From Microbacterium sp. ET2 (GTDB lineage Bacteria > Actinomycetota > Actinomycetes > Actinomycetales > Microbacteriaceae): DNA of 64,000 nt. The notes under the pieces were generated by a model. The model ran no database searches, was not told the DNA's origin, and saw only the letters and a program-made list of their open reading frames with translations. Positions 8,162-35,329 of this stretch are shown here, one piece after another. Within the stretch, counting starts at the first letter, position 1. Every line of letters begins with the position of its first letter. The stretch spans positions 1,550,001 through 1,614,000 of the forward strand of contig NZ_CP128170.1 in the NCBI RefSeq assembly GCF_030347395.1, in the 5' to 3' direction. Position numbers and translations under genes: made by a program.

Positions 8162-8215
8162 AAGACGAGAGTAGGAGATTCGCCCCGAAGGTGTCTGATC
8201 GATGGAGTTCGTCGA

Positions 8216-16607: not shown

Positions 16608-18872
16608 TCACACGGGCTGTCGAGCGTCGATGGAGCGCGTTGTGCCGACGACGTCGACAGACTCTCCGTCGCCGAGCTCGACACGGACGTCCGTGTCGCC
16701 GAGGGTGATGCGGACGTCTCGTCCACCTCGCAACCGCACTGATCCAGGCAGCGCGCGGACTGTAGCCCCTGCCGAGGTGCCGTCCCAGTTCAATGCCTCG
16801 ACGACCAGCCCTCCTCGGGCATGGATCATTGTCGCGGCTCCGATGTCCCACTCCCCCGGGAGCGCGGGCAAGAGTATGAGCCTGTCAATCGAGGACTGAA
16901 CGAGCATCGTATGCACGATCCCGACAAGTGATCCCGCGCCGTCGAGGTTGAAGATCGCGCCGTGGTCGTGGGTGAACGAGAGCGATGGGAGCGTGTAAGT
17001 CCTCGACAAGCGGTTTGCGCACTCCAAGGCGAGATCTCCGTCGGCCACGGCAGCGGCGGCGATACCGAGCTGCGCAAGCCCGTACGCCATCACCTCATTT
17101 CCGGTGTCTCGCCATTCCAGCTTCTTTCGAACAAGTGTGATCACGGCATCGGCGAGCGGACCACGCGTAAGCTCCGCGGGTGGATCGAACCACAGCTCCA
17201 GGAGCTGAGACGCCGTGCGATGGCCGATTTCCTCCTCCACCCCCTCGTCCAGCCACTCCGCGAGTGTGCCGTCTGGAGCCACGCGATAAGGCGGGAGGGC
17301 AGCGAGCCACTGCCGGCGTCGCTCGGCGAGGTGGCGATCCACATCGAGCAGCTCCGCGGAGCGGATCAGTCCGCGGAGCAAGACGGCGAGCGCCGCCCGG
17401 TCCTGGGTCGCGTTCCGGCAAGCTTGCGACGCGAAGGTGGAAGAGCGGTTTTCTGGCGAGTAGGACGGTGAGAACAGCAGCTGACCCTCTTCGGTCTGCA
17501 GGAAGCTCTCGTAGAACCGCTCTGCCTCTCTCGCAAAGGGATACGCCGCGGAGCGCAATCGCTGAAGATCTCCGGTGTACCACACGTCGTCGAGCGCAAT
17601 CGCGGCAGTCCAGGGCGTTCCTGCGGTCCAGAACTCGTGGCAGTGGTCTGCATCGAAGTGAGTCGTGCGCGCATGTCGGATGCTGCACCGAGAGGGGAGG
17701 AGGTAGCCGTCGGCGCCGAACAATGTATGCGCGTTGTGGCGCAGGTCGTCGCTGAAGCCGATGAGCATGTCGATCCAGGTTCGCACCTGTGCTGCCGAGC
17801 CGCTCGACAATGAGGCCGCGAGCGCGCCGTTCTGGACGTTCCCGTTCATCGTGAAATCGGAGGACCATGCAGGGTCGAACGTGCCCGACCATATTCCCTG
17901 CAGGGTCGGAGGGAACTCGCCGGTGGAATCCTCGATGAGCGAGGCACCTGCCTGCAGTTGCAGCTGCAGCAGCTCCCGCGATGCGGACGGGCTCCGGTCC
18001 CGCAACAGCTCCTCAGTTGTCCTGCCGGAGGACATGACCCCGAGATCGACGCTCGTGAGAGGGAGCGAGGCATCCCGGGCGATGCGGTGTCGCTTGAGCA
18101 ACGAGGCGTAATTGCCCTTCGGCCACGAAGCCCCCGCCTGGTCGTCGCCGTCCTGCCGGGGATTCACGCACAACCCCAGAAGGAGGCGGTCGTCCTCGCG
18201 GCTGAGGATCGCAATTCTGGTGGAAGCGCCGCTCTCGTCGACTCCCGCCCAACCGACGACGAAGCGAAGGTCGAGCAGCGCTTCGGGCTCCGGCGACCCG
18301 CCCCCGCCGAAGCGGGCTCGCTCCTGGTTTCCGCCACGCACACCCTCGGCGCCTATCGCGACGTTGTCGGGGGGGCGCAGCCGCACGCGTGTGTCATGCG
18401 GGACGTCGAGGACGGCGATACCGTCGGCCCGGCTCACGAACGCCCTGATGAGGCGTGGTCGTGCCGCGGCGGTCCAGACGATCTCGATCTCGCCCGAGAG
18501 AAGATCGACGCGTCGTTCGTAGTCCGCTGCTCCCGCATCGGAGTCGTCGCACAAGTCGATCGTTGCCACCGGCACGAGGGGATCCGTCCACTGCAGCCCG
18601 GAATATCCGTCCTCCGCGGCGACCGCCACAGCGAGATCCGCGGCATCTTGCGCTCGGCCTGTCGCGATCAGTCGCCGGATCTCGGCGAGGTGGGGGGCGA
18701 GGCGTGGCGCCGGTAGGGGCGGATCCGCTGGGAGAAGCACGCGCTCATGCGAGAGGGTGAGCTGGTGATGCCCAGGTTTCCCGAAGAGCATGAGGCCCAG
18801 CGACCCATTTCCTGCCACCAGCCCGTGTTCCCAGTCGCTTGCCTGGGTAGTAGTGCGATACGTCGGGCGCAC
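16608..18872 (-). CDS. Glycoside hydrolase family 95-like protein, copy 2
   Basis: A cytoplasmic protein of about 754 residues, clearly paralogous to the gene at 8216-10534. It shares the N-terminal W-E-H-G-L motif, M-N-G-N-V-Q, C-H-E-F-W-T-A-G and S-P-S-Y-S-P-E-N-R blocks, and the same beta-sandwich end. The GTG at 18872 has GGAGG five bases upstream and aligns with the start of copy 1; an ATG at 18914 would add 14 residues. Two diverged copies suggest action on different linkages or sizes of the same imported oligosaccharide. It is a separate transcription unit, with its own LacI-type operator at 18940-18957. No signal peptide. Confidence 0.8.
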   Translation of the reverse strand: MRPTYRTTTQASDWEHGLVAGNGSLGLMLFGKPGHHQLTLSHERVLLPADPPLPAPRLAPHLAEIRRLIATGRAQDAADLAVAVAAEDGYSGLQWTDPLVPVATIDLCDDSDAGAADYERRVDLLSGEIEIVWTAAARPRLIRAFVSRADGIAVLDVPHDTRVRLRPPDNVAIGAEGVRGGNQERARFGGGGSPEPEALLDLRFVVGWAGVDESGASTRIAILSREDDRLLLGLCVNPRQDGDDQAGASWPKGNYASLLKRHRIARDASLPLTSVDLGVMSSGRTTEELLRDRSPSASRELLQLQLQAGASLIEDSTGEFPPTLQGIWSGTFDPAWSSDFTMNGNVQNGALAASLSSGSAAQVRTWIDMLIGFSDDLRHNAHTLFGADGYLLPSRCSIRHARTTHFDADHCHEFWTAGTPWTAAIALDDVWYTGDLQRLRSAAYPFAREAERFYESFLQTEEGQLLFSPSYSPENRSSTFASQACRNATQDRAALAVLLRGLIRSAELLDVDRHLAERRRQWLAALPPYRVAPDGTLAEWLDEGVEEEIGHRTASQLLELWFDPPAELTRGPLADAVITLVRKKLEWRDTGNEVMAYGLAQLGIAAAAVADGDLALECANRLSRTYTLPSLSFTHDHGAIFNLDGAGSLVGIVHTMLVQSSIDRLILLPALPGEWDIGAATMIHARGGLVVEALNWDGTSAGATVRALPGSVRLRGGRDVRITLGDTDVRVELGDGESVDVVGTTRSIDARQPV

Positions 18873-18939
18873 ACGGTCCTCCGTCCTGCGGTGGGATGGC
18901 GCCGCCCGCGACATCCGTCACCGGTGGCTCCTGCAAGCA

Positions 18940-19067: not shown

Positions 19068-20171
19068 TCAGTCTTTCACCTCGATGCTCACGGGCACTCC
19101 TTCGCTCTGCTGCGACACATACGCGGCTTCGACAACAGCCATTGTGTGCAGCACATCGTCGACGGATGTCGGCAGCTCCGGCACCGATCCCTCGATGAAA
19201 CGCTGAACGGCTCCCATCGATCCGATGAACGCATCGGGGAACCACGACCCCGCGAAGGGCACGTCCTGCCACCCGCGGTCCTTTTGCTCGAGTAGTGCGA
19301 GTTCGAGCCTGTCTTGGCCCCCGGTCGGGTAGTCGAGCAGCAAGCCCATCTGGGCCCGGACCGCGCCCTTGGTTCCCTCCCATTTGATGTAGCTCTCTTC
19401 GTATCCGGACCCGAACGCGTGGTCGTGATTCGTGCTGACCGTGACCCGGAGGGGTCGGTCGCGATAGCGCAGCAGGATCGTGGAACGGGTGTTGGCGATT
19501 TCAGCTTTCTCGGGGTGCGGCAACGTGATCGCGCTGACTCCCTCGGGATTGCCGAGAAACGACCGTACGAGATCGAGGTAGTGCACGCTGTGCATATTGA
19601 TCTCCAGCCGCTCGAGACCGAAGACGTGTGGGAAGAGCCTCCACGGGGTGTCGACCTGCACGCGTATCTCGAGGTCGTAGAGCTCTCCGATCGTTCCTTC
19701 GGCGATGAGGCGTCGCGCCTCGGCTACGTAGGGGGCAAAGCGCAGCTGGGTATTCACCGCGGCGACGAGGTTCTTCCTGTGACAGAGTTCGCTCAACTCG
19801 ATTCCCTCGGCGAGGGTATGACCGAGCGGCTTCTGGATGAGCACGGCTGCATGGTCGGGCAGCATCTCGAGCGTCTCCAGATACTGCTCAGGCATCAGAG
19901 CGATGTCGTACACCGCATGTTCCGGCGCCGCGGCGACAGCCTCGGCGACAGTGCCGAACACATGCTCGATACCGTATTGATCGGCGAGCGCCTGGGCACG
20001 CGCGACTGTTCGGTTCACGAGCCCCCACACGGGGTATCCGGCCTTGCGATACGCCGGTAGATGCGCGTCCTTCACAATCCCGCCCGTGCCGATGATGACG
20101 ATCGGCCGTGGAGAAGCTGGCAGTTCAAGCGTGTATGCGGCAGCCAGATGCCGCTCTGGAAAGTCCGTCAT
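19068..20171 (-). CDS. Gfo/Idh/MocA-family oxidoreductase
   Basis: A 367-residue NAD(P)-dependent oxidoreductase. The N-terminal Rossmann fold carries G-T-G-G-I-V-K-D-A-H-L-P. The conserved lysine motif appears as Q-K-P-L-G-H-T (E-K-P in most relatives). A C-terminal alpha/beta substrate domain includes N-M-H-S-V-H-Y. Members oxidise or reduce sugars, inositols and aldonolactones. Beside a lactonase and 2-keto-3-deoxy-acid genes, it may be the sugar 1-dehydrogenase that makes the lactone substrate, but the family is too varied to be sure. It is the last gene of a minus-strand set with the lactonase and RraA-like genes. Confidence 0.88.
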   Translation of the reverse strand: MTDFPERHLAAAYTLELPASPRPIVIIGTGGIVKDAHLPAYRKAGYPVWGLVNRTVARAQALADQYGIEHVFGTVAEAVAAAPEHAVYDIALMPEQYLETLEMLPDHAAVLIQKPLGHTLAEGIELSELCHRKNLVAAVNTQLRFAPYVAEARRLIAEGTIGELYDLEIRVQVDTPWRLFPHVFGLERLEINMHSVHYLDLVRSFLGNPEGVSAITLPHPEKAEIANTRSTILLRYRDRPLRVTVSTNHDHAFGSGYEESYIKWEGTKGAVRAQMGLLLDYPTGGQDRLELALLEQKDRGWQDVPFAGSWFPDAFIGSMGAVQRFIEGSVPELPTSVDDVLHTMAVVEAAYVSQQSEGVPVSIEVKD

Positions 20172-20294: not shown

Positions 20295-21164
20295 TCATCG
20301 GTGCTCGAGGCGCTCGGGGTCGAGGCGGTAAACCTCTGCCGCAGTGCGCCCCAGCATCCACTCGCGGTCGCCGGCGTCAAGGCTGTCGAACAGGGGCCGC
20401 AGACCCCGCCAGACCCGCGTGTACCCTCCCGCCAGCACCGATATCGGCCAGTCGCCTCCGTAAAGCAGCCGGCGGGGTCCGAAAAGCTCGACGGCGCGGT
20501 CGAAGACCGGCCTGATCTGCTCGGTCGTCCACGCCGCCATGTCACCGGTCGCCGAATACAGCCCGCTTACCTTGCTGTAGACGAGCGGGTTCTCGGCGGC
20601 CGCAGCAAAGAGCGCGCCCCACGGCTGGATCGAGGAGAGCCCGATGGGCGGCTTCGCAAGGTGGTCGATCACCATGCGCAGCTCGGGATAACGCTCGGAC
20701 AGGATCGGCACCAGCTCGAGGTGCCGGGGCAGCACGGCAACAACATCGAGCGTGAGGCCGCGTTCTTCGAGCACAGACAGTGCCTCTCCGACCTCGGGGC
20801 GCAGTAGCCAGTCCGGGTCGGTCTTGTTGTGGATAAGGTTGCGCACGCCAACGAGGAGCGAGTCCCCCATCCATGAGTCAATCGTCGCGGCCGTGCCCGC
20901 TGGGTCATCGAGCGGGGCGAACCCGACGATGCCCACCACCTCGGGGTGCTGCGCCGCTGACTCGCGCATGAGTACCGTGTCCTCTGGGTTATCAGCCGAC
21001 TGTACCTGGACGGTGAAGTCGACGCCCGCGGCGCGGAGCTCGGGTCCGAGATCATCGAACGTCATCGCCCTGTCGATGGGGGCCATCGCAGAGCCCAGCC
21101 AGTCGTAGTCAGCGCGGGCCGGATCCCATACATGCTGGTGGGCATCGATCACGGGGAAAGTCAC
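20295..21164 (-). CDS. Amidohydrolase-family sugar lactonase (L-fuconolactonase/L-rhamnonolactonase type)
   Basis: A 289-residue TIM-barrel hydrolase of the amidohydrolase-2/COG3618 group. Metal or catalytic motifs are visible: H-Q-H at residues 9-11, D-H-L-A-K-P in the middle, and Y-G-G-D-W-P near the end (G-S-D-W-P in most relatives). COG3618 members include L-fuconolactonase, L-rhamnono-lactonase and 4-sulfomuconolactonase. With GH29 and GH95 genes nearby, hydrolysis of L-fucono-1,4/1,5-lactone to L-fuconate is the best guess. It lies 30 bases after the RraA-like gene. Confidence 0.85.
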   Translation of the reverse strand: MTFPVIDAHQHVWDPARADYDWLGSAMAPIDRAMTFDDLGPELRAAGVDFTVQVQSADNPEDTVLMRESAAQHPEVVGIVGFAPLDDPAGTAATIDSWMGDSLLVGVRNLIHNKTDPDWLLRPEVGEALSVLEERGLTLDVVAVLPRHLELVPILSERYPELRMVIDHLAKPPIGLSSIQPWGALFAAAAENPLVYSKVSGLYSATGDMAAWTTEQIRPVFDRAVELFGPRRLLYGGDWPISVLAGGYTRVWRGLRPLFDSLDAGDREWMLGRTAAEVYRLDPERLEHR

Positions 21165-21194: not shown

Positions 21195-21893
21195 TCAGAG
21201 CACGCGGTGGCGGTCCCAGACCGTACGAAGCGACTCGCCGGCGAGCAGCTCGGCGAGCACGGTGGACTCCCCTGCCGCACGCACACGGGCCCGGGCAAGC
21301 ACGTCGTTCTCGTCCGCGCGGGGAACGATCACGATCCCGTCGTCGTCGGCCATCACGAGATCCCCCTGGGCGATCGTCACCCCGCCGATGACGACGGGCT
21401 CGTCGATGTCGACGATGCGCAGGCGCGCGCGGAAGTCGATCGGACGCCGGGAGCGCGAGAAGGCGGGAAACCCGAGGGCCGCGATGCGATCGGTATCGCG
21501 CAGATTGCCGTCGGTCACGACGCCTGCCGCTCCCGCCGCCAGGGCTGCGGCACTGAAGAGCTCACCCCAGAATGCCGAGTCGTTGTTCTCGTCGGTGGCG
21601 ATGACGACGATCTCGCCGGTACCGATGCCGTCGATCATTTCGATCGCCTCGCCGTACGGATCGTCAGGTCTGTCGGCCAGCGACGGGGCGAAGCGCACCG
21701 TGCGTGCCCGCCCCATCATTCGCGTCCCGGGCACGATCGGGGCGAGCCGGTCGGACAGCACTTGATTCCGCAGCCCTGAGGCGTCGCATGAGTCGCTCAG
21801 GATAGCCGTCGTGAGACGCTCATCGCCGGGCTCGGGGCGGAACCCCCGATCATCGGATGACATGACAGACTCGTGGCAGGAAGAAGAAGACAC
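21195..21893 (-). CDS. RraA/HMG-aldolase-like protein
   Basis: About 232 residues of the RraA-like fold (dimethylmenaquinone-methyltransferase-like; 4-hydroxy-4-methyl-2-oxoglutarate/4-carboxy-4-hydroxy-2-oxoadipate aldolase family). The active-site pattern is present: G-E-L-F-S-A-A-A-L-A-A-G-A-A-G followed by T-D-G-N-L-R-D, whose Arg-Asp pair binds metal and substrate in the aldolases. In sugar-acid clusters such proteins may cleave or decarboxylate 2-keto acids. The start is uncertain: GTG 21893 or ATG 21863; neither has a strong Shine-Dalgarno. It is the first gene of a group with the lactonase and Gfo/Idh genes, preceded by about 680 bases without a gene. Confidence 0.82.
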   Translation of the reverse strand: MSSSSCHESVMSSDDRGFRPEPGDERLTTAILSDSCDASGLRNQVLSDRLAPIVPGTRMMGRARTVRFAPSLADRPDDPYGEAIEMIDGIGTGEIVVIATDENNDSAFWGELFSAAALAAGAAGVVTDGNLRDTDRIAALGFPAFSRSRRPIDFRARLRIVDIDEPVVIGGVTIAQGDLVMADDDGIVIVPRADENDVLARARVRAAGESTVLAELLAGESLRTVWDRHRVL

Positions 21894-22575: not shown

Positions 22576-23589
22576 TCAGACAGAAGGCGGGGCCGTGGAC
22601 TCGCGCACAACCACGAAAGGTTTCGGGTCGCGGACGACGACATCCGCGATGGTGCCGGAGGTGATCCTGTCATGGATCGCCGACATCGCCTCGCGACCGA
22701 GCTCATATAGCGGCATCCGCACCGTCGTGAGCGGCGGCCACGCGTTCTCAGCCGTCCACGCATCGTGCATCGCGACGATTGAGAGCTCCCCCGGCACACG
22801 GAGCCCAAGCCGCCGCGCCTCGAGTAGGGCTCCGTGTGCCGCATTAATGTTGGCGACCATGACGGCGGTGGGGGGCTCGGGCAGGGCCGCAAGCGCGGCG
22901 AGCGCGAGCCCTCCATTGCGGGGCTCGTAACCCAGGCGCGTCACGTATTCCTCCGGGACGTCGAGTCTGGCGTCCGCCATCGCGGCACGGAAGCCGCGCT
23001 CGCGGCGAGTCGCCGTGTCGGAGGCGGGGTGACCGCTGATCAGCGCGATGCGGGTGTGGCCGAAATCGATGAGGTGCCGAGTTCCGAGGTTGGCACCGAG
23101 GTCGTCATCTAGCACGACCGAGCCGGCGCTCTGGGGGTTAGTCGAGTTGACTAGGACGATCGGCAGCGACTCCTCGACGAGGATTTTGAGGTCCTCCGGA
23201 CGCATGGTGTCGCCGACCTGTAGGAGCACGCCGTCGACGCGGCCTTCGCCGATCAGCCGGGGAATGGCCTCCTGCCCTTCGGGCATGCCCTCGATGCGGG
23301 CCAGTAGCACCATGTAGCCGCGGCGAGTCGCCTCTTCCTCGACCCCTCGCATTAGCTCGGTGAAGATGGCGTTCGTTAGGTCGGGGACGATGAGACCGAT
23401 TACGTTCGTGCGCGAGAATTTGAGGGCCCGCGCTGCGAAGTTTGGGCGATAGTCGAGCTCCTGGGCCGCCTCGGTGATGCGACGCCGGGTGTCATCGCTG
23501 ACGCGGGCGTTCGGTGCATCACTGAGCACGCGCGAGGCGGCCGACACAGACACCCCCGCGCGTGCGGCGACATCGCTCAGCGTAGCCAT
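22576..23589 (-). CDS. LacI-family transcriptional regulator (regulator 2)
   Basis: A 337-residue LacI/GalR protein. The helix-turn-helix is T-L-S-D-V-A-A-R-A-G-V-S-V-S, followed by the hinge and a ligand-binding domain homologous to regulator 1 throughout, so the two are probably duplicates that have diverged. It begins 17 bases after the MaoC-like gene and ends the minus-strand operon starting with the CoA-transferase. Autoregulation through the operator at 26425-26442, which also controls the divergent dehydrogenase operon, is likely. The effector would be a metabolite of the sugar-acid branch. Confidence 0.92.
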   Translation of the reverse strand: MATLSDVAARAGVSVSAASRVLSDAPNARVSDDTRRRITEAAQELDYRPNFAARALKFSRTNVIGLIVPDLTNAIFTELMRGVEEEATRRGYMVLLARIEGMPEGQEAIPRLIGEGRVDGVLLQVGDTMRPEDLKILVEESLPIVLVNSTNPQSAGSVVLDDDLGANLGTRHLIDFGHTRIALISGHPASDTATRRERGFRAAMADARLDVPEEYVTRLGYEPRNGGLALAALAALPEPPTAVMVANINAAHGALLEARRLGLRVPGELSIVAMHDAWTAENAWPPLTTVRMPLYELGREAMSAIHDRITSGTIADVVVRDPKPFVVVRESTAPPSV

Positions 23590-23605: not shown

Positions 23606-24064
23606 TCACGCGCTCGCGACCCGGCGATTCACGAGATACAAGTGGGTCAGCACCATGACGGTGTCGCCGCGCTGATTCGTTGTGGTCACGAGCTCGTGCA
23701 CGTAGCCGAACTCCTCCGGACGCCTCGTGTGCTCGGTCTTTTGAGTGATCTCGGCGCTCACATGGATCGTGTCGCCGATGAAGACGGGGCGGACGAAGCG
23801 GATGCGATCGTAGCCGTAAGTCATCGCTTGCGGGTTGATGTCGCCGGCCGTCATACCCACCGCGATCGAGAGGATCAGGGTGCCGTGGGCGATCCGCTGT
23901 CCCGCCGGCTGGGTGGCCATCCACTGTGCGTCCATGTGGTGCGGGAAGAAGTCTCCCGTCTGCCCCGCGTGGATCACTATGTCCGACTCGGTGATGGTGC
24001 GTCCTACGGTCTCGCGGCGGTCTCCGACCTCGATGTCCTCGAACCAGCGGTCGGTGGTCTTCAT
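23606..24064 (-). CDS. MaoC-like hotdog-fold dehydratase/hydratase
   Basis: A 152-residue hotdog-fold protein of the MaoC/(R)-enoyl-CoA hydratase family. The catalytic pair is visible in T-G-D-F-F-P-H-H (Asp38 and His42 or His43), followed by the A-H-G-T-L motif. These enzymes add or remove water at an enoyl-CoA double bond. The start at 24064 overlaps the stop of the preceding gene (ATGA); an ATG five codons upstream is possible. Coupling to a CaiB/BaiF CoA-transferase implies that a CoA ester is made and then hydrated or dehydrated. This is unusual inside a sugar-utilisation cluster. Confidence 0.88.
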
Positions 24065-25194
24065 GTGTGCTCTAGCCATTCCCCGACGCCTTCGTCGAGT
24101 CTCGATCGCAGCTGCTCATCGGTGAGGCGGCCGATCAGGGCCTCGGTGACGAACTCGGAGAGTGCATTCTGGAGTTCGATGTAATGGACGGAGCGTGGGC
24201 GCAGGTAAGCACCCTCGAGCGTGGCGCGGGTGTCCCGGAAGAAGTCGAGCGAATCGGCATTTGTGCGATCGCTCTCCCAGGCGACGGTGTTACCCGGCTG
24301 TCCGCCGGCGTCGTAGTAGATGCCCTCCTGTACCTCGGCCGAGTCTAGCCAGAACGCGTACGCGATCGCCTGCTCGAGGTTCTTGGTGCGGGCGGAGACG
24401 GCGATGCCGGCACCTCCGAGCAACGCGCCGTTCACGCCGTTGCGAGACTCCGGAATGTCCGTGTACTTCACTCGGTTCGGCCGAAAGCCCGCCCGGCTGT
24501 AGTTCGTGTAGCCGAACATGAGCGGAACATAGGCGTATCGGTTGCTGGTACTGAGCGCGTCCGCCGCAAGGATCGGGTTCCAGGTGCTGTTGTTCTTAGG
24601 TACGAGAGAAGCGAGCCGGCGGAGCGTCTCCATGGCCTCGGCAAGCGCATCTGCGCTCAGGAACACACCGGGTGAGCGCATCGGCTCCTCCCCGTTGCCC
24701 GAGGCTACGGTGACGAGGCTCGAAAACGAGTCGACGGGCTTGTAAGGCCACAGCACGCGGCCCTGCTCGGCCAGGGCCAGAACACCTGTCCAGTCTCGCG
24801 GAGGCTCGGGCAGAAGATCGGGGCGATACGCCGAGACCTGCGCCGCGGCATCCGTGGCAAGGCCGTACTGGCCGCCGTTGTGCGAGTAGGACGCGTGCGA
24901 GGCGCCCACGGACTGCGTTGCGAGCACTGCGAGCTCGTCGTCGTGACCGGTGCCGTCGAGGCGAGCGAAGAGCCCGTGCTCGGCTGCCCGAGGGATGTGC
25001 GGGTGGTCGATCACGAGCAGGTCGTACTGCTCGACGAGGTCTTCGAGCGCCTGGTCGGCGAACGATTGCAGCGAGCGCTGCTCCCAGCGCACCTCGACGT
25101 CGGGCGCGACGGCGCGATACGCGTCGGCCGAGGCGGCGACGCTACCATGGCCGCGCTCGTGCTCCCAGGTGATGCCCGTGAGGACGGTGGTCAC
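24061..25194 (-). CDS. Solute-binding-protein-like protein without a signal peptide
   Basis: A 377-residue protein with the fold pattern of family-1 extracellular solute-binding proteins: mixed alpha/beta N-lobe, Y-D-L-L-V-I-D-H strand, and late motifs resembling ABC sugar-binding proteins such as A-Y-A-F-W-L-D. It starts directly at the first beta strand (T-V-L-T-G-I-T-W), with no basic/hydrophobic leader and no lipobox. GTG 25194 is chosen because it lies one base after the CoA-transferase stop and has AGAAGG/GGTGGG upstream; the extra N-terminal codons of the longer frame do not form a signal peptide either. Its end overlaps the MaoC-like gene (ATGA). It is therefore co-translated with two CoA enzymes and is likely cytoplasmic. 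The function is unknown. Confidence 0.85.
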
Positions 25195-25195
25195 G

Positions 25196-26386
25196 TCATC
25201 CCACCTTCTGAGCCAAGGCGCCGGTCGCGTGTGTCGGCGGAAACTCGGCCCGCACTCTCTCGTCGTCTTCACCAAGCGTCGGCGCGGCCTTTTCGCTCGT
25301 AAGCACTTCGCCGTCGATGCGGAGAGGGCTACGCGTCGTCGAGATCGTCGCGCCGCGGCGCACGACCTGCTGGGTCATCCGGATCGCGACGAATCCTTCC
25401 GAGTCGAGGAGCTCGTCGAGGGTCAGAACGGGGGCACACCAGACGTCGGCGGCATCGAGGATGTCGAGCCAGTGCTGTGTGGTGCCGGTTGCGAAGCGCG
25501 CGGCGAGGATTGCCTCGATGCGCTCCTGCTGGTCCCACGCGAGCTGGGGGTCGATCATCCCCTCGAGTACCGGCAGGTCCAGCAGTGCGCCGAGCTTAGG
25601 GACGGGGTTCATCGCGAGGGCGATGTAGCCGTCGCTCGTGGGGTAGGTGCCATACGGCGCGGCGAGGAACGCGTGCGCGGCGTGGTCGCCGTGCCTCTGA
25701 ACCTGAATCGTGTCGTCGTTGAGCTTGGTGCTGAGCAGTTCGAACTGAAGGTCGAGCATGGATTCTAGGAGGCTCGATTCGACCAGGCCGCCCTGACCGG
25801 TGCGGAACCGGCGCACCAGCAGGGCCGTGACGCCCTGCGCGATATGGCAGCTGAGCAGGTGGTCAGCGATCGAGAGCCCCACGGGCACAGGCCCATCGGC
25901 CCTCGATCCACTGAGCCACGGAAGGCCAGAGATCGCCTGGGCAAGTAGGTCCTGCCCCGGTCGATCCCGCCAGGGCCCGTTGTTGCCGTAGCCGGTCGCG
26001 CTGGCGTAGACGATTGCCGGATTGATCTCCTTGACCGAGGCGTAGTCGAGGCCGATGCGCTCCATGACGCCGGGGCGGAAGTTCTGGATGAGGACGTCTG
26101 CACGCGCCACGAGCTCTTTGACGTAGGCCAGGTCACTGGGCACCTTCAGGTCAGCGGTAACTGATTCCTTGTTACGGTTCATGGCGTGAAACGACACGGT
26201 GTCGCCGTCGAGCGTGCGACCCGCGAAGGCGAGAGTTCGTCCGATGTCGCCCGTGCCTGGCCGCTCGATCTTGATGACGCGGGCGCCGAGATCGGCGAGG
26301 CGCATGGCGGCGACGGGACCGGCCAGAAACTGGCTGAAATCGAGGACGAGCAGACCCGCGAGGGGTCTGATGTTCTCCGTAGTCAT
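25196..26386 (-). CDS. CaiB/BaiF-family (family III) CoA-transferase
   Basis: A 396-residue class III CoA-transferase. Typical blocks are present: an early L-D-F-S-Q-F-L-A-G-P, A-D-L-G-A-R-V-I-K-I-E-R-P-G, and R-P-G-Q-D-L-L-A-Q-A-I-S-G with Asp146, the residue that forms the aspartyl-CoA anhydride. It moves CoA between carboxylic acids. The start at 26386 matches the family N-terminus; an ATG at 26443 would place the operator at 26425-26442 inside the gene. It leads an operon with the signal-less binding protein, the MaoC-like hydratase and LacI regulator 2. The acid substrate is unknown. Confidence 0.9.
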   Translation of the reverse strand: MTTENIRPLAGLLVLDFSQFLAGPVAAMRLADLGARVIKIERPGTGDIGRTLAFAGRTLDGDTVSFHAMNRNKESVTADLKVPSDLAYVKELVARADVLIQNFRPGVMERIGLDYASVKEINPAIVYASATGYGNNGPWRDRPGQDLLAQAISGLPWLSGSRADGPVPVGLSIADHLLSCHIAQGVTALLVRRFRTGQGGLVESSLLESMLDLQFELLSTKLNDDTIQVQRHGDHAAHAFLAAPYGTYPTSDGYIALAMNPVPKLGALLDLPVLEGMIDPQLAWDQQERIEAILAARFATGTTQHWLDILDAADVWCAPVLTLDELLDSEGFVAIRMTQQVVRRGATISTTRSPLRIDGEVLTSEKAAPTLGEDDERVRAEFPPTHATGALAQKVG

Positions 26387-26424
26387 CGGCAATGGTTCGC
26401 TTTCGTCGTTTAACAGGTCACCGT

Positions 26425-26442
26425 TGATCAATCGTTTGCTCA
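26425..26442. promoter_or_regulatory. LacI-type operator in the divergent CoA-transferase/dehydrogenase promoter region
   Basis: TGATCAATCGTTTGCTCA; the opposite strand reads TGAGCAAACGATTGATCA. It lies in the 149-base gap between the divergently transcribed CoA-transferase (start 26386) and zinc dehydrogenase (start 26536), so one repressor could control both operons. It matches the site at 22195-22212 over GAGCAAACGATTGA. Confidence 0.72.
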
Positions 26443-26535
26443 TGGTAGTTTAGGCCGCGGGCGACCGCAAGGCGACATCGTTGGGCTTGGGTTGCACCAT
26501 GCAGTTGCCGAACTCATCCCTAGAAAGGCGCGCCG

Positions 26536-27558
26536 GTGCTGACAGCGAGCTATGTGGGCGACCACACTATCGAGATCTCCCACGCCGACCCCGTGCCGCC
26601 AGGCCCCGGACTCGTGCAGATCGCCGTGGCCTACACGGGCCTCTGCGGGACGGACCTTCACATCCTGCACGGCAGCATGGACGCCCGCGTGCAGACCCCG
26701 CTCGTCTTCGGCCATGAGATGAGCGGCAAGATCGCCGCAGTCGGCGACGGGGTCACGGGCTGGTCGTTCGGTGACGGGGTCACCGTCATGCCTCTCTCGT
26801 GGGATGGAACGTGCCCGGCATGCCTCGCCGGCAACACCCACGTCTGCCAGAACCTCGACTTCATCGGCATCGACTCCCCCGGCTCCCTGCAAGGCCTCTG
26901 GAACGTCCCGGTTGAGACGCTCGTGGCGCTGCCCGAGGGGGTGCGCCTGGATCATGCCGCGCTTGTCGAGCCCGTCGCGGTGGCGGTGCACGACGTCCGC
27001 CGCTCCGGCCTCGTCGCCGGGCAAAAGGTCGTCGTGATCGGCGGCGGCCCGATCGGTGTTCTCATCGCCACGGTCGCACGGCACTTCGGGGGCGATGTCG
27101 TCGTAATCGAACTCGATGAGAAGCGCCGTGCGCAGATCGAGGGCCTCGGCTTTACCACGATCGACCCGCGAGCGATCGACCAGGTGACCTGGGTCACCAG
27201 GTGGTCAGGGGGAGCTGGGGCAGATGTCGTGTTCGAGGTCTCCGGGGCGGCGCAGGCCGTCCTCGGCGCCACCGCGCTCGCCAAGGTGCGCGGCACGATC
27301 GTTGTCGTCGCCATCCACCCAACGCCCCGGGAGATAGACCTCCAACGCGTATTCTGGCGCGAGCTCAGCATCCTCGGTGCGCGCGTCTACCAGCGCACCG
27401 ACTTCGAGACCGCGGTCGGCCTCGTGGCTGACGGCATCATCCCGTCCGAGCTGCTGATCACCCGCATCGTGCCGCTCAGCGAAACCCAGGCGGCGTTCGC
27501 CGATCTCGAGGCGGGCCGAGCCATGAAGATCCTCGTGGACGTGAGGGGCCAGGCATGA
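26536..27558 (+). CDS. Zinc-type medium-chain dehydrogenase with altered structural-zinc site
   Basis: A 340-residue sorbitol/threonine-dehydrogenase-like enzyme. It has the catalytic zinc motif T-G-L-C-G-T-D and G-H-E-M-S-G, and the Rossmann motif G-G-G-P-I-G. The structural zinc loop reads D-G-T-C-P-A-C-L-A-G-N-T-H-V-C, so the first of the usual four cysteines is aspartate. The GTG start at 26536 has AGAAAGG upstream. It is the first gene of a plus-strand operon with a KduD-like SDR, a KDPG-type aldolase and a KDG-type kinase. A role as a sugar or sugar-acid dehydrogenase is likely. Confidence 0.9.
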   Translation: MLTASYVGDHTIEISHADPVPPGPGLVQIAVAYTGLCGTDLHILHGSMDARVQTPLVFGHEMSGKIAAVGDGVTGWSFGDGVTVMPLSWDGTCPACLAGNTHVCQNLDFIGIDSPGSLQGLWNVPVETLVALPEGVRLDHAALVEPVAVAVHDVRRSGLVAGQKVVVIGGGPIGVLIATVARHFGGDVVVIELDEKRRAQIEGLGFTTIDPRAIDQVTWVTRWSGGAGADVVFEVSGAAQAVLGATALAKVRGTIVVVAIHPTPREIDLQRVFWRELSILGARVYQRTDFETAVGLVADGIIPSELLITRIVPLSETQAAFADLEAGRAMKILVDVRGQA

Positions 27559-28313
27559 GCAGTCTCTTCTCGCTGGAGGGCACTACCGCCGTCGTCACCG
27601 GTGCCCGCCGCGGTATCGGCTTTGCGATGGCCGTCGCCCTTGCTGAGGCCGGGGCAGACATCATCGGTGTCAGCGCGACGCTCGCGCCGTTCGGAAGCGA
27701 TATCGAGCGAGCCGTGACTGCCGCAGGTCGCTCGTTCGAGGGCCACGCGTGCAACTTCGCGGATAGCGGCGCCGTCGACGCCCTGGCTGCCGTCCTCGTC
27801 GAGCGCGAGATCGACACCCTTGTCAACAACGCCGGTACGATCGAGCGCTCCCCTGCGGCAGAGCATCCGCTGGAGCTGTGGGACAAAGTGGTGCAGGTAA
27901 ACCTGACGAGCCAGTTTCAACTCACACAGGCCCTCGCCCGGCCCATGCTCGGGCGCGGACGCGGGAAGATCATTTTCACCGCATCACTACTGAGCTTCCA
28001 GGGCGGCATCAACGTGCCCGGCTACACGGCCGCGAAATCCGGCATCTCCGGACTGACGAAAGCTCTTTCGAACGAATGGGCGCCCCACGGCGTCAACGTC
28101 AACGCCATCGCTCCCGGCTATATCGCCACCGACAATACCGCCCAGCTTCGCGGCGACGCCCAGCGCTCGAAGAGTATCCTCGAGAGGATTCCAGCGGGGC
28201 GCTGGGGCGAAGCGTCCGATATCGGCGGTGCAGCGGTGTTCCTGGCATCCCGCGCTTCCGACTACGTGAACGGCATCACGCTCCCCGTAGACGGCGGATG
28301 GCTTGGACGATGA
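27555..28313 (+). CDS. SDR dehydrogenase, KduD-like (2-keto-3-deoxy acid dehydrogenase)
   Basis: A 252-residue short-chain dehydrogenase. Cofactor motif T-G-A-R-R-G-I-G, N-N-A-G strand end, and catalytic Tyr157/Lys161 (Y-T-A-A-K) are all present. The closest recognisable type is KduD (2-dehydro-3-deoxy-D-gluconate 5-dehydrogenase), which carries the R-R-G-I-G sequence and a similar C-terminus ending V-D-G-G-W. In an L-fucose oxidative route a similar SDR oxidises 2-keto-3-deoxy-L-fuconate, so either substrate is possible. It overlaps the preceding dehydrogenase and following aldolase by four bases each (ATGA). Confidence 0.88.
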   Translation: MSSLFSLEGTTAVVTGARRGIGFAMAVALAEAGADIIGVSATLAPFGSDIERAVTAAGRSFEGHACNFADSGAVDALAAVLVEREIDTLVNNAGTIERSPAAEHPLELWDKVVQVNLTSQFQLTQALARPMLGRGRGKIIFTASLLSFQGGINVPGYTAAKSGISGLTKALSNEWAPHGVNVNAIAPGYIATDNTAQLRGDAQRSKSILERIPAGRWGEASDIGGAAVFLASRASDYVNGITLPVDGGWLGR

Positions 28314-28960
28314 GCGGATGGCTGGATTCCCGGCCGATCATCCCGGTTGTCATCAGTGACGCCCCGGAGATCGCCGCAGACCTTGCCAACGCACTCGACG
28401 CTGGCGGCGTGACGTGCGCAGAAATCACCCTGCGCACCCCGCGGGGTTTGGAGCTGCTCATGGCCATGGTCGCTCACGCACCCGCGGGGTTCGCCGTCGG
28501 TGCAGGGACGGTGCTCGACCTCTACCAGGTCGACGCGGTGGCCGGCGCCGGGGCATCCTTCGTTGTCAGCCCCGGATACGATCCGGAGATCGTCGATCGC
28601 GCACGGGCGCTGGGAATGGCGGTGCTGCCGGGCGTGGCGAGCGCGACCGAGGTGCAGCGCGCCAGACGCGATGGCGTCGAGACGGTGAAGTTCTTTCCCG
28701 CCGATCGGTTGGGCGGCTGGGAGACGATCGCCGCCTTCGCAGGAGTCTTCGACGGAGTCGGTTTCGTTCCCAGCGGAGGCGTGGGAGCCGACAATCTTGA
28801 CCGCTATCTCTCGCTACCCGCCGTTCCTGCCGTCAGCGGCAGCTGGCTGGCGCCGCGGCGCGAACTCGACGCCGGCGACTTCTCCGTAGTAGTGGAGCGC
28901 AGCCGGTCCGCCATCCGTATCGCAGCTGAGTCCTGCCCGAGCGGTCGGTCCATACGATGA
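28310..28960 (+). CDS. KDPG/KHG-type 2-keto-3-deoxy-acid aldolase
   Basis: A 216-residue class I aldolase of the Eda family. Glu38 in C-A-E-I-T-L-R-T and the Schiff-base Lys127 in V-K-F-F-P-A-D are in the expected places, with the G-A-G-T-V, P-G-V-A-S and P-S-G-G-V glycine-rich segments. It would cleave a 2-keto-3-deoxy(-6-phospho) acid to pyruvate and an aldehyde. The following gene is a KDG-type kinase, so the likely order is kinase first, then aldolase. ATGA overlaps at both ends show tight translational coupling. An in-frame extension upstream through the SDR gene is spurious. Confidence 0.9.
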   Translation: MSGWLDSRPIIPVVISDAPEIAADLANALDAGGVTCAEITLRTPRGLELLMAMVAHAPAGFAVGAGTVLDLYQVDAVAGAGASFVVSPGYDPEIVDRARALGMAVLPGVASATEVQRARRDGVETVKFFPADRLGGWETIAAFAGVFDGVGFVPSGGVGADNLDRYLSLPAVPAVSGSWLAPRRELDAGDFSVVVERSRSAIRIAAESCPSGRSIR

Positions 28961-29922
28961 GCGGAGACGCGGTGAAGAACGGCGTCGTCACGCTGGGTGA
29001 GACGATGACGCTCTTCCGCCCCACACATCCCGGCAACGGCGCCCGTGAGGACGACTACCGGATGTCGTTCGGCGGGGCCGAGAGCAACGTCGCCATCGGC
29101 GTTGCACGCTTGGGTGGCTCGGCGACCTGGATAGGTCGCATCGGCGACGATGTCGCGGGTCGCCGAATCGTCCGGGAACTCCGCGCCGAGGGCGTCGTCG
29201 TTCGTGCTCACGTGGATGTCGATGCCGGCACCGGCGCGATGATGAAGTCGGAAGCCGCCCCCGGATACACCGCCGTCCAGTATTGGCGCTCGGGCAGCGC
29301 TGGGAGCAGACTCGCGCCACCAGATGTCGATGCTGATCTGCTGGCCTCCGCGCAGCTCGTGCACGTCACAGGCATCACCGCTGCCATCTCCGACTCGGCA
29401 CGCGATGCTGTCGGCGCGGCGATCGATGCGGCCAAAGAGGCGGACGTCCCCGTCAGTTTCGACGTAAATCACCGACCTTCGCTGTGGCGCGGGAGGGATC
29501 CGCGACCGGTGTATCGCGAACTCGCCGCATCGGCTCGGTTCGTTTTCGCGGGACGCGACGAGGGCGCGCTGCTGGTGGGAGACGGCACCGACGAAGAGAT
29601 CGTCACCCGCCTCGCCGCGCTCGGTCCGACGACGGTCGCCCTGAAGCTCGGCGCCGAGGGCACCCTCGTGCTCCACGGCGGTCGGGTGCTCCGACGGGAC
29701 GCAATCCCGATCGTTCCCCGCGACACGGTTGGCGCTGGCGACGCATTCGTGGCCGGCCTCCTCACGGAGTGGATGCTCGCGGAACCCATCGAGAACTGTG
29801 TCCACACCGCTGTGAGTGCCGGAGCGTTCGCGTGCCTGGGTTCGGGCGACTGGGAGAATCTTCCCGACCGGCGCCAGTTGAGTCTCCTGCAATCGTCCGG
29901 CTCGGACCCCGTCTCTCGATGA
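28957..29922 (+). CDS. PfkB-family sugar kinase, 2-keto-3-deoxygluconate kinase-like
   Basis: A 321-residue ribokinase/PfkB-type kinase. The N-terminal G-E-T-M-T-L-F and G-G-A-E-S-N-V-A substrate motifs are typical of KdgK. The catalytic G-A-G-D loop is at about 259-262 with Asp262 as base. It phosphorylates a 2-keto-3-deoxy sugar acid ahead of the Eda-like aldolase with which it overlaps (ATGA at 28957). It ends the plus-strand operon; the remnant of an oxidoreductase gene lies immediately downstream on the other strand. Confidence 0.9.
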   Translation: MSGDAVKNGVVTLGETMTLFRPTHPGNGAREDDYRMSFGGAESNVAIGVARLGGSATWIGRIGDDVAGRRIVRELRAEGVVVRAHVDVDAGTGAMMKSEAAPGYTAVQYWRSGSAGSRLAPPDVDADLLASAQLVHVTGITAAISDSARDAVGAAIDAAKEADVPVSFDVNHRPSLWRGRDPRPVYRELAASARFVFAGRDEGALLVGDGTDEEIVTRLAALGPTTVALKLGAEGTLVLHGGRVLRRDAIPIVPRDTVGAGDAFVAGLLTEWMLAEPIENCVHTAVSAGAFACLGSGDWENLPDRRQLSLLQSSGSDPVSR

Positions 29923-30518: not shown

Positions 30519-32114
30519 TCACGCGCGATCTATCCGATAGCAGTACGCGACCTGATCCGGGGTACGCTCCGGGAACGAAAGGTGCAGAGCTGTGCGGTCC
30601 CGCTTCACCGCGAGAGGGGTGGAGTCCGCTCCTAGGAGTGTGACGGTGCCGACCTCTCCCGGGTACGCGGAGCCGCCCTCCGCGAGCGCTCGAAGCGCGA
30701 TACCATCCGGACCGGGTCTCCCGAGCACGGTCGCGTAGACCGTCTCGTTCCGAGCGGTGTATCGGATGTCGCGCTTCGTGTAGTCTGGCCTGCTCTCCGT
30801 GAAGTGACCGGCTGCAACCCGCCCGGCATACCACTCTGTCTCGTCCTCTCCGATGAAATGCGACCCTTCATCGCTGAGCCTTCCGTCCCCCTCGCGATCA
30901 ATCACCCAGGGGCGGGTGCCGTAGACCGCCTCGCCATTCGTCCGAAGCCAGCTTCCGATAGCGGTGAGGGTGTCGGTCAGCTCATCGTCTACCGATCCGT
31001 CGGCGCGCTGAGGCACGTTCAGCAGAAGATTGCCGTTGTTGGAGACGACATCCATCAACAGATGGATGACGTACGCATCCGACTTGTACACGGGATTCTG
31101 GGCGTCAAAGAACCAATCCCCCAAGCTGGTGTCGTCCTGCCAGGGCCACCGCTGACCAAGACCTGGCTGCCCGCGCTCGACGTCAAGAACGAAGGCGGTC
31201 CGCTCCTCGTCGGAGACGGTCTTGATGTTCACTACAACTCCGTCGGAGCCCGGACTCCGCCAAGGGCGGTCCCAGAGACGGGAGTCGTTGAAGTAGTCCG
31301 CGATGACTCTTCTTCCTCGGGAACTAGGAGGAACGGCCTCGCACAGACTCCCCTGGTCAAAAGGGAGGCGAGGGTCGTCGAAGTACAACAGGTCGGGCTG
31401 GTACCGCCTCGATGCTTCGCGGACTCGCATCCAGAAGTTTCTGACAAATTGCTCGGAGGGTGCGTCACCCGCTGCGCGCGGCGGACCGTACAGATCCGCA
31501 GGATCCATTCCCTCCCACCACAACCCGGCCCCGTCCTCGACGCGAGTCGCGCCGTCGTAGGCCCCCTCGGCGTCTCCTCCCCTGGCGGCGTCGTACCAAT
31601 CCCAGCTCCACGACCCGGCATGGAAGGACAAGCCAAACGGAAGTTGGTGCCTGCGCGCTGCTGCCGCCCATTCGCCGACCACGTCGCGGCGCGGACCCAT
31701 CCGGGTTGAGTTCCACGGTTGATGAGTGGAGTCCCACAGGTCGATGTTGTCGGCGTGGACCGCCATGGAAACGAAGTACCGGGCGCCCGCGTTCTCGAAT
31801 AGATCCATGAGATTCTCGGGCGAGAATCGCTCAGCGGTCCAGAGGTTCGCGATATCCTTCCACCCCGCCTTCGACGGATGGCCGTACCGCTCTCGGAAGA
31901 TTGAGACGATCCGCTCCGCTTTCTGCCTTTCCCACGCTCGGGAACCGGGATACGAGCCGTACATGATGCGCGATACCCAGTCCCCAAGCTCTGGCTGCGC
32001 CTGGGGACCCCAGTGCGACCAGATGCCAAACTTGGCGTCGCGGTACCACTCCGGCGTCGCGTGATGCTTGAGGGACTCAAGCGATTGGGTGTACGTGCGG
32101 GCGTCGTCGATCAT
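30519..32114 (-). CDS. Alpha-L-fucosidase, GH29
   Basis: A 531-residue glycoside hydrolase family 29 protein with no signal peptide. Hallmarks are K-F-G-I-W-S-H-W-G near residue 30, a catalytic-domain block around G-L-S-F-H-A-G-S-W, the nucleophile region L-L-Y-F-D-D (Asp246), and S-N-N-G-N-L-L-L-N-V near residue 370, followed by a C-terminal beta domain. GH29 enzymes release alpha-L-fucose by a retaining mechanism. It is the last gene of an operon with a MalFG-type transporter, which therefore probably imports a fucosylated glycan or fucoside cleaved inside the cell. The start has an AGAGAG site upstream. Confidence 0.9.
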   Translation of the reverse strand: MIDDARTYTQSLESLKHHATPEWYRDAKFGIWSHWGPQAQPELGDWVSRIMYGSYPGSRAWERQKAERIVSIFRERYGHPSKAGWKDIANLWTAERFSPENLMDLFENAGARYFVSMAVHADNIDLWDSTHQPWNSTRMGPRRDVVGEWAAAARRHQLPFGLSFHAGSWSWDWYDAARGGDAEGAYDGATRVEDGAGLWWEGMDPADLYGPPRAAGDAPSEQFVRNFWMRVREASRRYQPDLLYFDDPRLPFDQGSLCEAVPPSSRGRRVIADYFNDSRLWDRPWRSPGSDGVVVNIKTVSDEERTAFVLDVERGQPGLGQRWPWQDDTSLGDWFFDAQNPVYKSDAYVIHLLMDVVSNNGNLLLNVPQRADGSVDDELTDTLTAIGSWLRTNGEAVYGTRPWVIDREGDGRLSDEGSHFIGEDETEWYAGRVAAGHFTESRPDYTKRDIRYTARNETVYATVLGRPGPDGIALRALAEGGSAYPGEVGTVTLLGADSTPLAVKRDRTALHLSFPERTPDQVAYCYRIDRA

Positions 32115-32162: not shown

Positions 32163-33005
32163 TCAACGCAAGGCTCCGCCCAGCGCGATGCCCTTCCGGA
32201 TATGACGGCTGAAGACGACGTATATGACGAGCAAAGGAAGCATCGCCATCGTTAGCCCGGCGAACAGTGGACCCTGCTCGCTGGTGAACTGACCCTGGAA
32301 CGACAGCACCCCCACTGGCACGGTCTGGCTGGTCGCAGACTGCAGCAGAACTAGCCCCACCTGCGTCTCCCCCCACACCCACACCGTCGCCAGAATGCCC
32401 GCAGCTGCGATGGGCGCCGCCGAGAGCGGCAGAACAATGCGGGTAAAGCTGGCGAAGGGCCCCAGCCCATCGAGAGCCGCCGCATCGCGCAGTTCGTCGG
32501 GGAACTCGAGGAAGAATGAATGGAGGATCAGCGCGGACGTGGGCAGCGATAGCCCCCCGTAAAGCACGCCGACGGCAAGAGGCTCGTTCAGCAGGTTCAG
32601 CCCGTTGAAGATCCGGAAGAGGGGGATGAGCAGGGCGATCGCCGGGATGATCGTGCCGATGAGGAACAGCATCATCACCCGTCTGCGCCAGCGCTGCGAG
32701 AGCAGGGACGTGAAGTAGGCCGCGATCGCCCCGGCCGTCAACGACACCGTGACGGCCGCGATCGTGACGATGAGCGTGTTGCCGAAGTACCGCGAGAAGC
32801 CCACACCGCCGAGCGGTCCCTCCCACGCGCGGCTAAAGTTCTCGGGGACCCACGCCCCAGTGAGGCTGAGCGGGTTCGCGTAGATGTCGGCCATGGACCG
32901 AAACGACAATAGGACGATGAAGACAAACGGCAACACGACCATTGTTGTCCACACCACCGCGGGGATGTGCGCGAGATAACGCGATGCCCGGCGAAGCCGC
33001 TTCAT
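32163..33005 (-). CDS. ABC sugar permease, MalG type
   Basis: A 280-residue CUT1-type permease. It has about six membrane helices with the F-R-S-M-A-D-I-Y-A-N-P periplasmic segment and the cytoplasmic EAA-type loop (D-A-A-A-L-D-G-L-G). ATGA overlap with the upstream MalF-type permease at 33005. It belongs with the solute-binding protein at 33952 and the GH29 fucosidase downstream. No cognate ATPase is encoded nearby. Confidence 0.93.
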   Translation of the reverse strand: MKRLRRASRYLAHIPAVVWTTMVVLPFVFIVLLSFRSMADIYANPLSLTGAWVPENFSRAWEGPLGGVGFSRYFGNTLIVTIAAVTVSLTAGAIAAYFTSLLSQRWRRRVMMLFLIGTIIPAIALLIPLFRIFNGLNLLNEPLAVGVLYGGLSLPTSALILHSFFLEFPDELRDAAALDGLGPFASFTRIVLPLSAAPIAAAGILATVWVWGETQVGLVLLQSATSQTVPVGVLSFQGQFTSEQGPLFAGLTMAMLPLLVIYVVFSRHIRKGIALGGALR

Positions 33006-33955
33006 GACTCGGCTCGCGATCGGCTGAGGCGGATCGCGACGATTCCGACGCCGATCAGGACGATGCTGCCGAGCACGCCAATCGCGGCCGCGCTCCCATA
33101 ATTACTGAAGAAGAACGCTTCGCGGTAGAGCAATACGGGCAGGGTCTGCGTAGCATCGCCCGGCCCGCCCCGCGTCATCGCCCACACGACGGTGAACCCG
33201 TTGAAGCTCCAGATAAACTGAAGCATCACGACGATGGTGAGAACCGGCTGGATGCTGGGGAGTGTGATGAACCAGAAGCGTTGCGCCGCCGACGTGCCAT
33301 CAAGCCGACCTGCTTCGTAGAGACTGACCGGCACCTGCTCCATCGCACCGAGGATCAGCAGGAATGCGAAGGCCGATTCGATCCACACGTTGACCACGAC
33401 GATCACATACAGCGCCGATTCGGGGTCCGCAAGCCAAGCGGTGCTGGCCGATCCGCCGAACGACTCGATGAGGACGTTGACGATTCCCGTGCCCGGCTGT
33501 ACCGACAACGCCCAGAAGACGGCTAGAGCCGCAGGCGGTGCAATCGCGGGCAGAAACCAGACGAACTTATAGAAGGAGTTGCGACTCGTCGCGCTGCTGG
33601 CGATGGCGGCGAGGACAAGCGCGAGCCCCGTCGTGCCGACGGTGACCAGGACCGCGAAGACGAAGGTGGTGCGGACCGAGCGATAAAAGTCCGGCCGCGA
33701 TAGCACATCCCCGAAGTTCGCCAGTCCCACCCATTCCACCGGGCCCGCACCGCGCCATGTCGCCAGCGAGAGCCGGACGGTATCGAAGACTGGATAGGCG
33801 AAGACGCACGCCAGCAGGATGAGGGCGGGGGCGAGCGCGATCGCCATGGTGAGGGGGGCGACCGATCGCGGGCTGCGCCGAGCTCTCCGAGCAACCCCGT
33901 CGCGATCAGAATCACGAGGCTGCGCGCTCAGGCGAGATCGACTTTCCAGGCTCAT
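33002..33955 (-). CDS. ABC sugar permease, MalF type
   Basis: A 317-residue CUT1-type permease with an arginine-rich cytoplasmic N-terminus, six hydrophobic segments and the EAA-type loop (Y-E-A-G-R-L-D-G-T). The start at 33955 overlaps the stop of the solute-binding protein (ATGA) and fits family length. The longer open frame runs backward through the binding-protein gene and is rejected. It pairs with the MalG-type protein that follows. Confidence 0.92.
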   Translation of the reverse strand: MSLESRSRLSAQPRDSDRDGVARRARRSPRSVAPLTMAIALAPALILLACVFAYPVFDTVRLSLATWRGAGPVEWVGLANFGDVLSRPDFYRSVRTTFVFAVLVTVGTTGLALVLAAIASSATSRNSFYKFVWFLPAIAPPAALAVFWALSVQPGTGIVNVLIESFGGSASTAWLADPESALYVIVVVNVWIESAFAFLLILGAMEQVPVSLYEAGRLDGTSAAQRFWFITLPSIQPVLTIVVMLQFIWSFNGFTVVWAMTRGGPGDATQTLPVLLYREAFFFSNYGSAAAIGVLGSIVLIGVGIVAIRLSRSRAES

Positions 33956-35277: not shown

Positions 35278-35329
35278 CCTGGGCCTCCGTTGGTTCACCG
35301 GGATATCGATTTATTTGCGTCGGGCAAGT

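Follow-up and report, generated by a model that had tools for sequence, protein, structure and literature searches.

A leaderless sugar-type solute-binding protein encoded with CoA-ester enzymes in sugar-acid operons

In Microbacterium sp. ET2, a solute-binding protein (SBP) of the carbohydrate type that lacks an export leader is encoded between a family III CoA-transferase and a MaoC-like hydratase, and this module is real, is present in three phyla and is undescribed as far as the open-access literature shows. Support is good for the absence of a leader and for the genes forming a unit; the reaction is proposed at a lower level of confidence. It is a good possibility, tentatively preferred here, that the trio acts as one intracellular unit of sugar-acid catabolism of a CaiB/CaiD-like kind, whose SBP-fold member would bind, and perhaps convert, the sugar acid.

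Gene organization of the trio and its sugar locus

The trio lies on the minus strand of the window, the 64-kb stretch of the Microbacterium sp. ET2 genome that was analysed. The first gene (25196..26443) encodes the family III (CaiB/BaiF) CoA-transferase, hereafter CaiB (Pfam CoA_transf_3, 327 bits), for which a start at 26443 and the start at 26386 chosen in the initial annotation are equally possible. The GTG start of the SBP gene (24061..25194, minus strand, 377 aa) is preceded by AAGGTGGGA and lies one base past the CaiB stop. The third gene (23606..24079, minus strand) encodes a MaoC-like hot-dog hydratase (Pfam MaoC_dehydratas, 75 bits) with a GDFFPHH motif, whose likely start is the inner ATG at 24064, giving an ATGA overlap with the SBP stop. 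A LacI-family regulator gene (22576..23589, minus strand; Pfam LacI and Peripla_BP_3) ends the run 16 bases beyond MaoC, as a LacI gene also does after the trio in loci L001-L010 and L026. These coordinates confirm the one-base gap, the ATGA overlap and the neighbouring LacI gene reported initially. No NCBIfam model scored above its cut-off for any of these four proteins, nor for the CaiB and crotonase of the sister type described below, two Gfo/Idh proteins or DUF4432. The genome has five CaiB genes (six match rows, two within one frame), and no natural CaiB-SBP fusion was found in the loci read.

Downstream on the minus strand are genes encoding an RraA-like protein (21195..21893; Pfam RraA-like, 120 bits), with a homologue near SBP-MaoC in several relatives, an Amidohydro_2 protein that is a probable sugar lactonase and recurs in relatives (20295..21164; Pfam), and a Gfo/Idh/MocA oxidoreductase (19068..20171; Pfam), a homologue of which is again encoded close to the SBP in actinobacteria, alphaproteobacteria and Rufibacter. 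Divergent from CaiB, the plus strand carries a zinc alcohol dehydrogenase gene (26536..27558; Pfam), found in nine of the ten loci L001-L010 and not seen in L008, followed by genes for an SDR close to KduD (27555..28313; NCBIfam kduD, 321.5 bits, under the cut-off of 338.85), a KDPG/KHG aldolase (28310..28960; Pfam Aldolase, 165 bits) and a pfkB-family sugar kinase (28957..29922; Pfam PfkB, 171 bits). A GH95 protein (16608..18914, minus strand; Pfam Glyco_hydro_95_cat, 159 bits) and a GH29 alpha-L-fucosidase (30519..32114, minus strand; Pfam Alpha_L_fucos, 257 bits) are encoded on either flank of the locus. Elsewhere in the window (7142-10714, minus strand), a second LacI gene (51% to the LacI of the trio) lies beside a second GH95 gene (49-50%).

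An ABC importer (32163-35298, minus strand) belongs to the same sugar locus and lies 7 kb from the trio, not adjoining it; it consists of two permeases (32163..33005, Pfam BPD_transp_1, 56 bits; and 33002..34093, 5' end uncertain, BPD_transp_1, 36 bits) and an ordinary lipoprotein SBP with a leader and the lipobox LTAC (33952..35298; Pfam SBP_bac_1, 86 bits). The initial statement that no permease accompanies the trio thus holds for the immediate neighbours but fails for the locus, where the importer has its own lipobox SBP.

The operons containing the module are of the sugar-acid type, and many are L-fucose-like. Fucosidases, the mutarotase and the fuconate dehydratase of these operons are consistent with L-fucose, while the combination of KDPG aldolase and pfkB kinase would suit a non-deoxy acid better. 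L-fucose as the only substrate was not accepted; no fuconate dehydratase was detected in this genome at E 1e-80.

Fold, predicted location and conserved residues of the SBP

Pfam assigned the SBP to SBP_bac_8 (58.4 bits, cut-off 27) and SBP_bac_1 (28.5 bits, cut-off 26), and the AlphaFold2 model (pLDDT 96.7, pTM 0.93) confidently predicts a whole sugar-SBP fold of type II. A search of the model against a viral fold library returned six matches at E <=0.001, the best with a TM of 0.42 by query length, and was uninformative. The first strand of the model spans residues 3-10, in agreement with the early remark that the protein starts directly at its first beta strand. The absence of a leader or lipobox, also remarked on then, was borne out: the frame upstream of the GTG (L132) contained no lipobox pattern and its top 12-residue hydrophobicity was 0.49, and a lipobox pattern was present in 24 of the 25 SBP_bac_8 loci of this genome, the trio SBP being the exception. 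Among the matches listed, 356 of 360 family proteins start at most 16 residues from the TWxH motif and none of the 360 has a leader, so that homologues with a signal peptide upstream, which the initial annotation had named as the sign of a mis-set start, did not appear; in the two family rows above the hydrophobicity mark, the first helix accounts for the value. A mis-set start or hidden leader was rejected on the family start positions together with the lipobox and leader scans. Of the features of exported SBPs, the trio SBP has the type II fold and the Pfam family, and has neither a signal peptide or lipobox nor adjoining permease genes. Its location is predicted from sequence to be cytosolic.

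The SBP is 17-19% identical to the maltose-type SBPs MalE3 (6dtq), trehalose/maltose-binding protein (1eu8) and SmoF (7ofy), from which it differs in having no leader or lipobox, in not lying beside a permease gene, and in its own invariant residues TW...R, D-x-P and GGQ...W. In the alignment of leaderless proteins, 20 columns were identical across all 74 rows (69 distinct), including five rows from loci without CaiB; these are W10, R14, W37, L42, F45, D58, D63, P65, G97, D115, A117, G260, G261, G263, Q289, G298, Q299, W306, R332 and P333, and position 12 is His in 71 of the 74 rows. Judging from the AlphaFold2 model and an alignment to maltose-binding protein, several invariant residues lie at strand ends facing the cleft. 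Ligand-site positions were taken from the sequence alignment to maltose-binding protein: R14 aligns with its K15, and the position of H66, outside the twenty, aligns with its R66, both of which contact the sugar in that protein. The invariant columns and these two contact positions suggest strong, common constraint on the usual ligand cleft. No known catalytic motif was recognised in the SBP.

Linkage and co-inheritance across genomes

The linkage to CoA-transferase genes, on whose conservation the initial annotation had made its proposal depend, is conserved and goes beyond chance, given the five CaiB genes of the genome and the recurrence elsewhere: CaiB and the SBP are linked in Actinomycetota, alphaproteobacteria and one Bacteroidota plasmid. 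In the named genomes, CaiB was in the stretch read in 26 of 28 loci, and the contig ends in the other two (L017 and L027). It lay less than 400 bases from the SBP on the same strand in 12 of the 28, and 1.3-2.4 kb downstream in the same direction in 14, where MaoC plus an RraA-like gene, an amidohydrolase or a mutarotase intervene. The search of the family gave 39 SBP match rows in 35 of 199 genomes; G338 and G349, which also have CaiB, each show a split match, and counting each of these as one reduces the rows to 37 genes. Among the 35 SBP loci of this set, CaiB was in the stretch read in 34 (none in L081) and less than 400 bases away on the same strand in 29. In a phylum-wide draw, the SBP occurred in 3 of 296 genomes, the ET2 genome included. 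Plasmids also carry the family (145 of 72,556 records, 90 of them Sinorhizobium), and of 13 plasmid loci read, 12 were counted, the S. meliloti 1021 record (L031) being left out; CaiB was in the stretch in 11 of these and no more than 400 bases from the SBP, on its strand, in nine. On pSymB of S. meliloti 1021 (L031:16301-17457), a CaiB match in two pieces directly precedes the SBP match. The neighbours of CaiB-SBP in alphaproteobacteria vary among L-fuconate dehydratase, an L-rhamnose-mutarotase-like protein, amidohydrolase, Gfo/Idh, MaoC, SDR, FAH hydrolase and a full importer with its own SBP.

The CaiB (E 1e-100) and MaoC (E 1e-35) of the window each matched 19 of the 199 family genomes, and these were the same 19 genomes from 16 genera, all 19 with the SBP. 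Type A, the SBP type with MaoC, is partly defined by neighbours, and the result free of this circularity is that the CaiB and MaoC sets are identical and both lie within the SBP set; a naive calculation puts the probability of such identity at about 6e-27, kinship making the true figure larger. Genomes of the same genus without the trio (G257 and G456 beside G000; G316 beside G395) indicate that it is gained or lost as a unit. The SBP-MaoC distance was less than 100 bases in 16 of the 19 genomes and 2.4 kb in one, with the genes on different contigs in two. As a control from these operons, the fuconate dehydratase gene occurred in 73 of the 199 genomes, including 16 of the 19. Of the other 16 SBP genomes, which lack this CaiB and MaoC, 15 had the CaiB of type B, and G361 had neither in the stretch read.

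Sister types, exceptions and a second leaderless family

In type B, the order is CaiB-SBP-crotonase, accompanied by a DUF4432 epimerase, SDR, Gfo/Idh and often an FAH hydrolase. The family set contains 17 type-B loci; in 16 of them CaiB and crotonase flank the SBP on the same strand within 250 bases, L075 being the exception. Both types occur in G306 and G483, each SBP with its own CaiB. In Martelella (L033:19433-21464), a CaiB-crotonase pair of type B, which has no SBP of its own alongside, lies about 6 kb from a type-A CaiB-SBP-MaoC set.

A tree of 79 different rows was built from 74 leaderless SBPs together with 10 exported SBPs encoded in the same loci. A branch with support 97/95 and length 2.64 divided all leaderless SBPs from the exported ones, which separated in 99% of 200 bootstrap trees; the tree has no known root and some long end branches, and leaves the number of leader losses unfixed. 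Type A was not a single branch, with types labelled by the nearest CaiB in the stretch read (L037 was labelled A, its CaiB being 4.5 kb off on the other strand).

A leaderless SBP can occupy a sugar-acid operon without an adjacent CaiB, as in L039, L081, L094, L095 and L096, where none was present in the stretch read. In L039 (Microvirga), mannonate dehydratases, SMP-30 and an SDR accompany the SBP, and in L081 it is accompanied by DHDPS and an aldehyde dehydrogenase. The last three loci come from 385 genomes around L011, six of which had the SBP, three with CaiB adjoining and three with none in the stretch read (L094 lies near a contig end).

In Rufibacter, a leaderless SBP stands on each side of two tandem CaiB genes; the second, placed after these genes and before Gfo/Idh and MaoC, did not match the A2 profile and is assigned by Pfam as an SBP. 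This protein belongs to a second, distinct leaderless SBP family of similar sugar operons (L038:13541-14785, L108:8747-10000, L109:9083-10135 and L104:8397-9461), with relatives in 3 of the 199 family genomes. In G442 and G457, the second family occurs in fucose-type operons at the place where relatives have LacI-MaoC-SBP-CaiB; no match to the first SBP, CaiB or MaoC references was found in the 19 kb read around it, and both genomes were absent from the family-wide SBP, CaiB and MaoC matches (199 genomes). G395 holds both SBPs.

Catalytic residues of the CoA enzymes

The window CaiB has the CoA_transf_3 domain and the catalytic Asp of family III CoA-transferases, the latter aligned at residue 194 (numbered from the ATG at 26443) and kept in all 64 partner rows (62 distinct). 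All NCBIfam models listed for CaiB were far below cut-off with regard to substrate, among them the carnitine CoA-transferase equivalog (59.4 bits, cut-off 413), which was rejected. Itaconate degradation (Ict-Ich-Ccl) was likewise rejected, RipB/Ich scoring 54.6 bits against a cut-off of 340.

The MaoC protein has the MaoC domain with the Asp-His motif of these hydratases. The pattern GDF[FY]PHH occurred in 45 of the 47 MaoC rows less than 130 bases from an SBP, the two misses being a single gene read twice (L089 and L097) that encodes a MaoC_36-type protein; overall, it was present in 55 of 61 first-type rows (MaoC_w, MaoC_33 and MaoC_36) versus none of 12 MaoC2 rows. The latter represent a second MaoC paralogue without the pattern behind CaiB in actinobacterial operons (e.g., L016:11962-12486). 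The closest solved relative of the window MaoC is the MaoC-like protein 4ffu (165.7 bits over residues 9-153), whose PDB listing gives no function other than 'oxidase'. In the type-B crotonase, both glutamates, in GGGLE and APE, were kept in at least 21 of 22 rows. Given that the catalytic residues are kept, CoA-ester chemistry by these enzymes is likely. Next to the same CaiB-SBP pair, the place of MaoC is taken in type B by an unrelated fold, so that the property common to MaoC and crotonase in this position is acyl-CoA hydration.

Proposed route and alternative explanations

CaiB and CaiD are the pair for carnitine dehydration, in which CaiB hands CoA on to the next substrate. The module resembles them in combining a family III CoA-transferase with a crotonase or other hydratase, catalytic residues kept, and differs in its sugar-acid operon, its MaoC in type A and its SBP member. 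By analogy, CaiB would load CoA onto a sugar acid, MaoC (or crotonase in the sister type) would remove or add water on the sugar-acyl-CoA, most simply by water loss across C2 and C3 that yields the enol of a 2-keto-3-deoxy-acyl-CoA, and CaiB would then pass the CoA to the next sugar acid. The SBP cleft may close on the sugar acid or a derivative, and the SBP would be an active component of the pathway, for which we slightly favour catalysis of a step over mere holding of the ligand; these two points are the least certain of the scheme.

This proposal of an intracellular unit draws on the co-inheritance in 19 genomes, the alternating hydratase folds, the kept catalytic residues, the leaderless branch and the 20 invariant columns. 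The evolution of enzymes from SBPs has precedent in cyclohexadienyl dehydratase, an SBP fold turned to metabolism as in the present case; it arose from an amino-acid SBP and its activity is proven (PMC7683729), whereas the trio SBP is of the carbohydrate type and known from sequence. Against the proposal, CaiB is not always nearby, many invariant SBP residues (G, P, W) suit plain ligand binding, no catalytic motif is evident, a Martelella CaiB-crotonase pair lacks its own SBP, and 16 of 35 SBP genomes lack this CaiB and MaoC. The dehydration step may also be redundant or act on another acid, because 16 of the 19 trio genomes also have fuconate dehydratase. A wider claim, to be taken seriously if with some caution, is that a family with the carbohydrate-SBP fold evolved into cytosolic enzymes, or into obligate catalytic subunits, for a CoA-recycling route of sugar-acid dehydration in Actinomycetota, alphaproteobacteria and Bacteroidota, and that the leader was lost a further time, independently, by a second SBP lineage in operons of a similar kind.

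A non-catalytic role, in which the SBP as a carrier or subunit would capture the sugar acid and hand it to CaiB, is possible, if rather doubtful. The close, sometimes touching CaiB genes in 29 of 35 family-set loci, the Rufibacter SBPs flanking tandem CaiB genes and the lack of a recognisable catalytic motif fit such a role, but relatives that have no CaiB nearby keep the same invariant residues, which speaks against the SBP being a CaiB subunit and nothing more, and an accessory protein might be expected to be absent from some of the 19 genomes. Nor is any earlier case of an SBP serving as an intracellular carrier known to us, which also counts against it. An own role of the SBP, perhaps catalytic, is weighted somewhat above that of a pure CaiB subunit because the CaiB-less relatives keep the same site. 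Loci without CaiB, together with the second leaderless family in the fucose-type operons of G442 and G457, would also agree with shared regulation only, the SBP serving the sugar-acid pathway while CaiB and MaoC act on a different, co-degraded compound; this is unlikely, considering that CaiB and MaoC were always accompanied by the SBP in the 19 of 199 genomes and that the same SBP-CaiB unit is combined with hydratases of two unrelated kinds.

A role as an intracellular sensor of a pathway intermediate, working with the LacI or IclR regulator whose gene is in the run or close by in many loci, seems quite improbable: LacI has its own sugar-sensing domain, and the regulator type varies while the SBP is constant. 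Export after all, through a mis-set start or a non-classical route and in the service of the importer 7 kb away, has in its favour the fold and Pfam family of exported SBPs; it is very improbable indeed, as no family protein among the 360 in the matches listed has a leader, the importer has its own lipoprotein SBP and the leaderless proteins group on their own in the tree.

Implications

These results support the initial suggestion that a binding-protein fold lacking an export signal is associated with the CoA-ester enzymes of a sugar-acid pathway. No account of an intracellular SBP with a CoA-transferase, or of this module, was found among the papers listed from the open-access PMC literature, and passages of PMC9007349 and PMC3454389 contain nothing on the SBP gene of the module. 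Many members of the family are named, for example, 'extracellular solute-binding protein', which, on the present evidence, would misstate their location and probably their function. Should the SBP work within the cell alongside CoA enzymes, a binding protein would have shifted from transport into metabolism, and sugar acids would be handled in a CoA-dependent manner that is absent from the pathway maps known to us.
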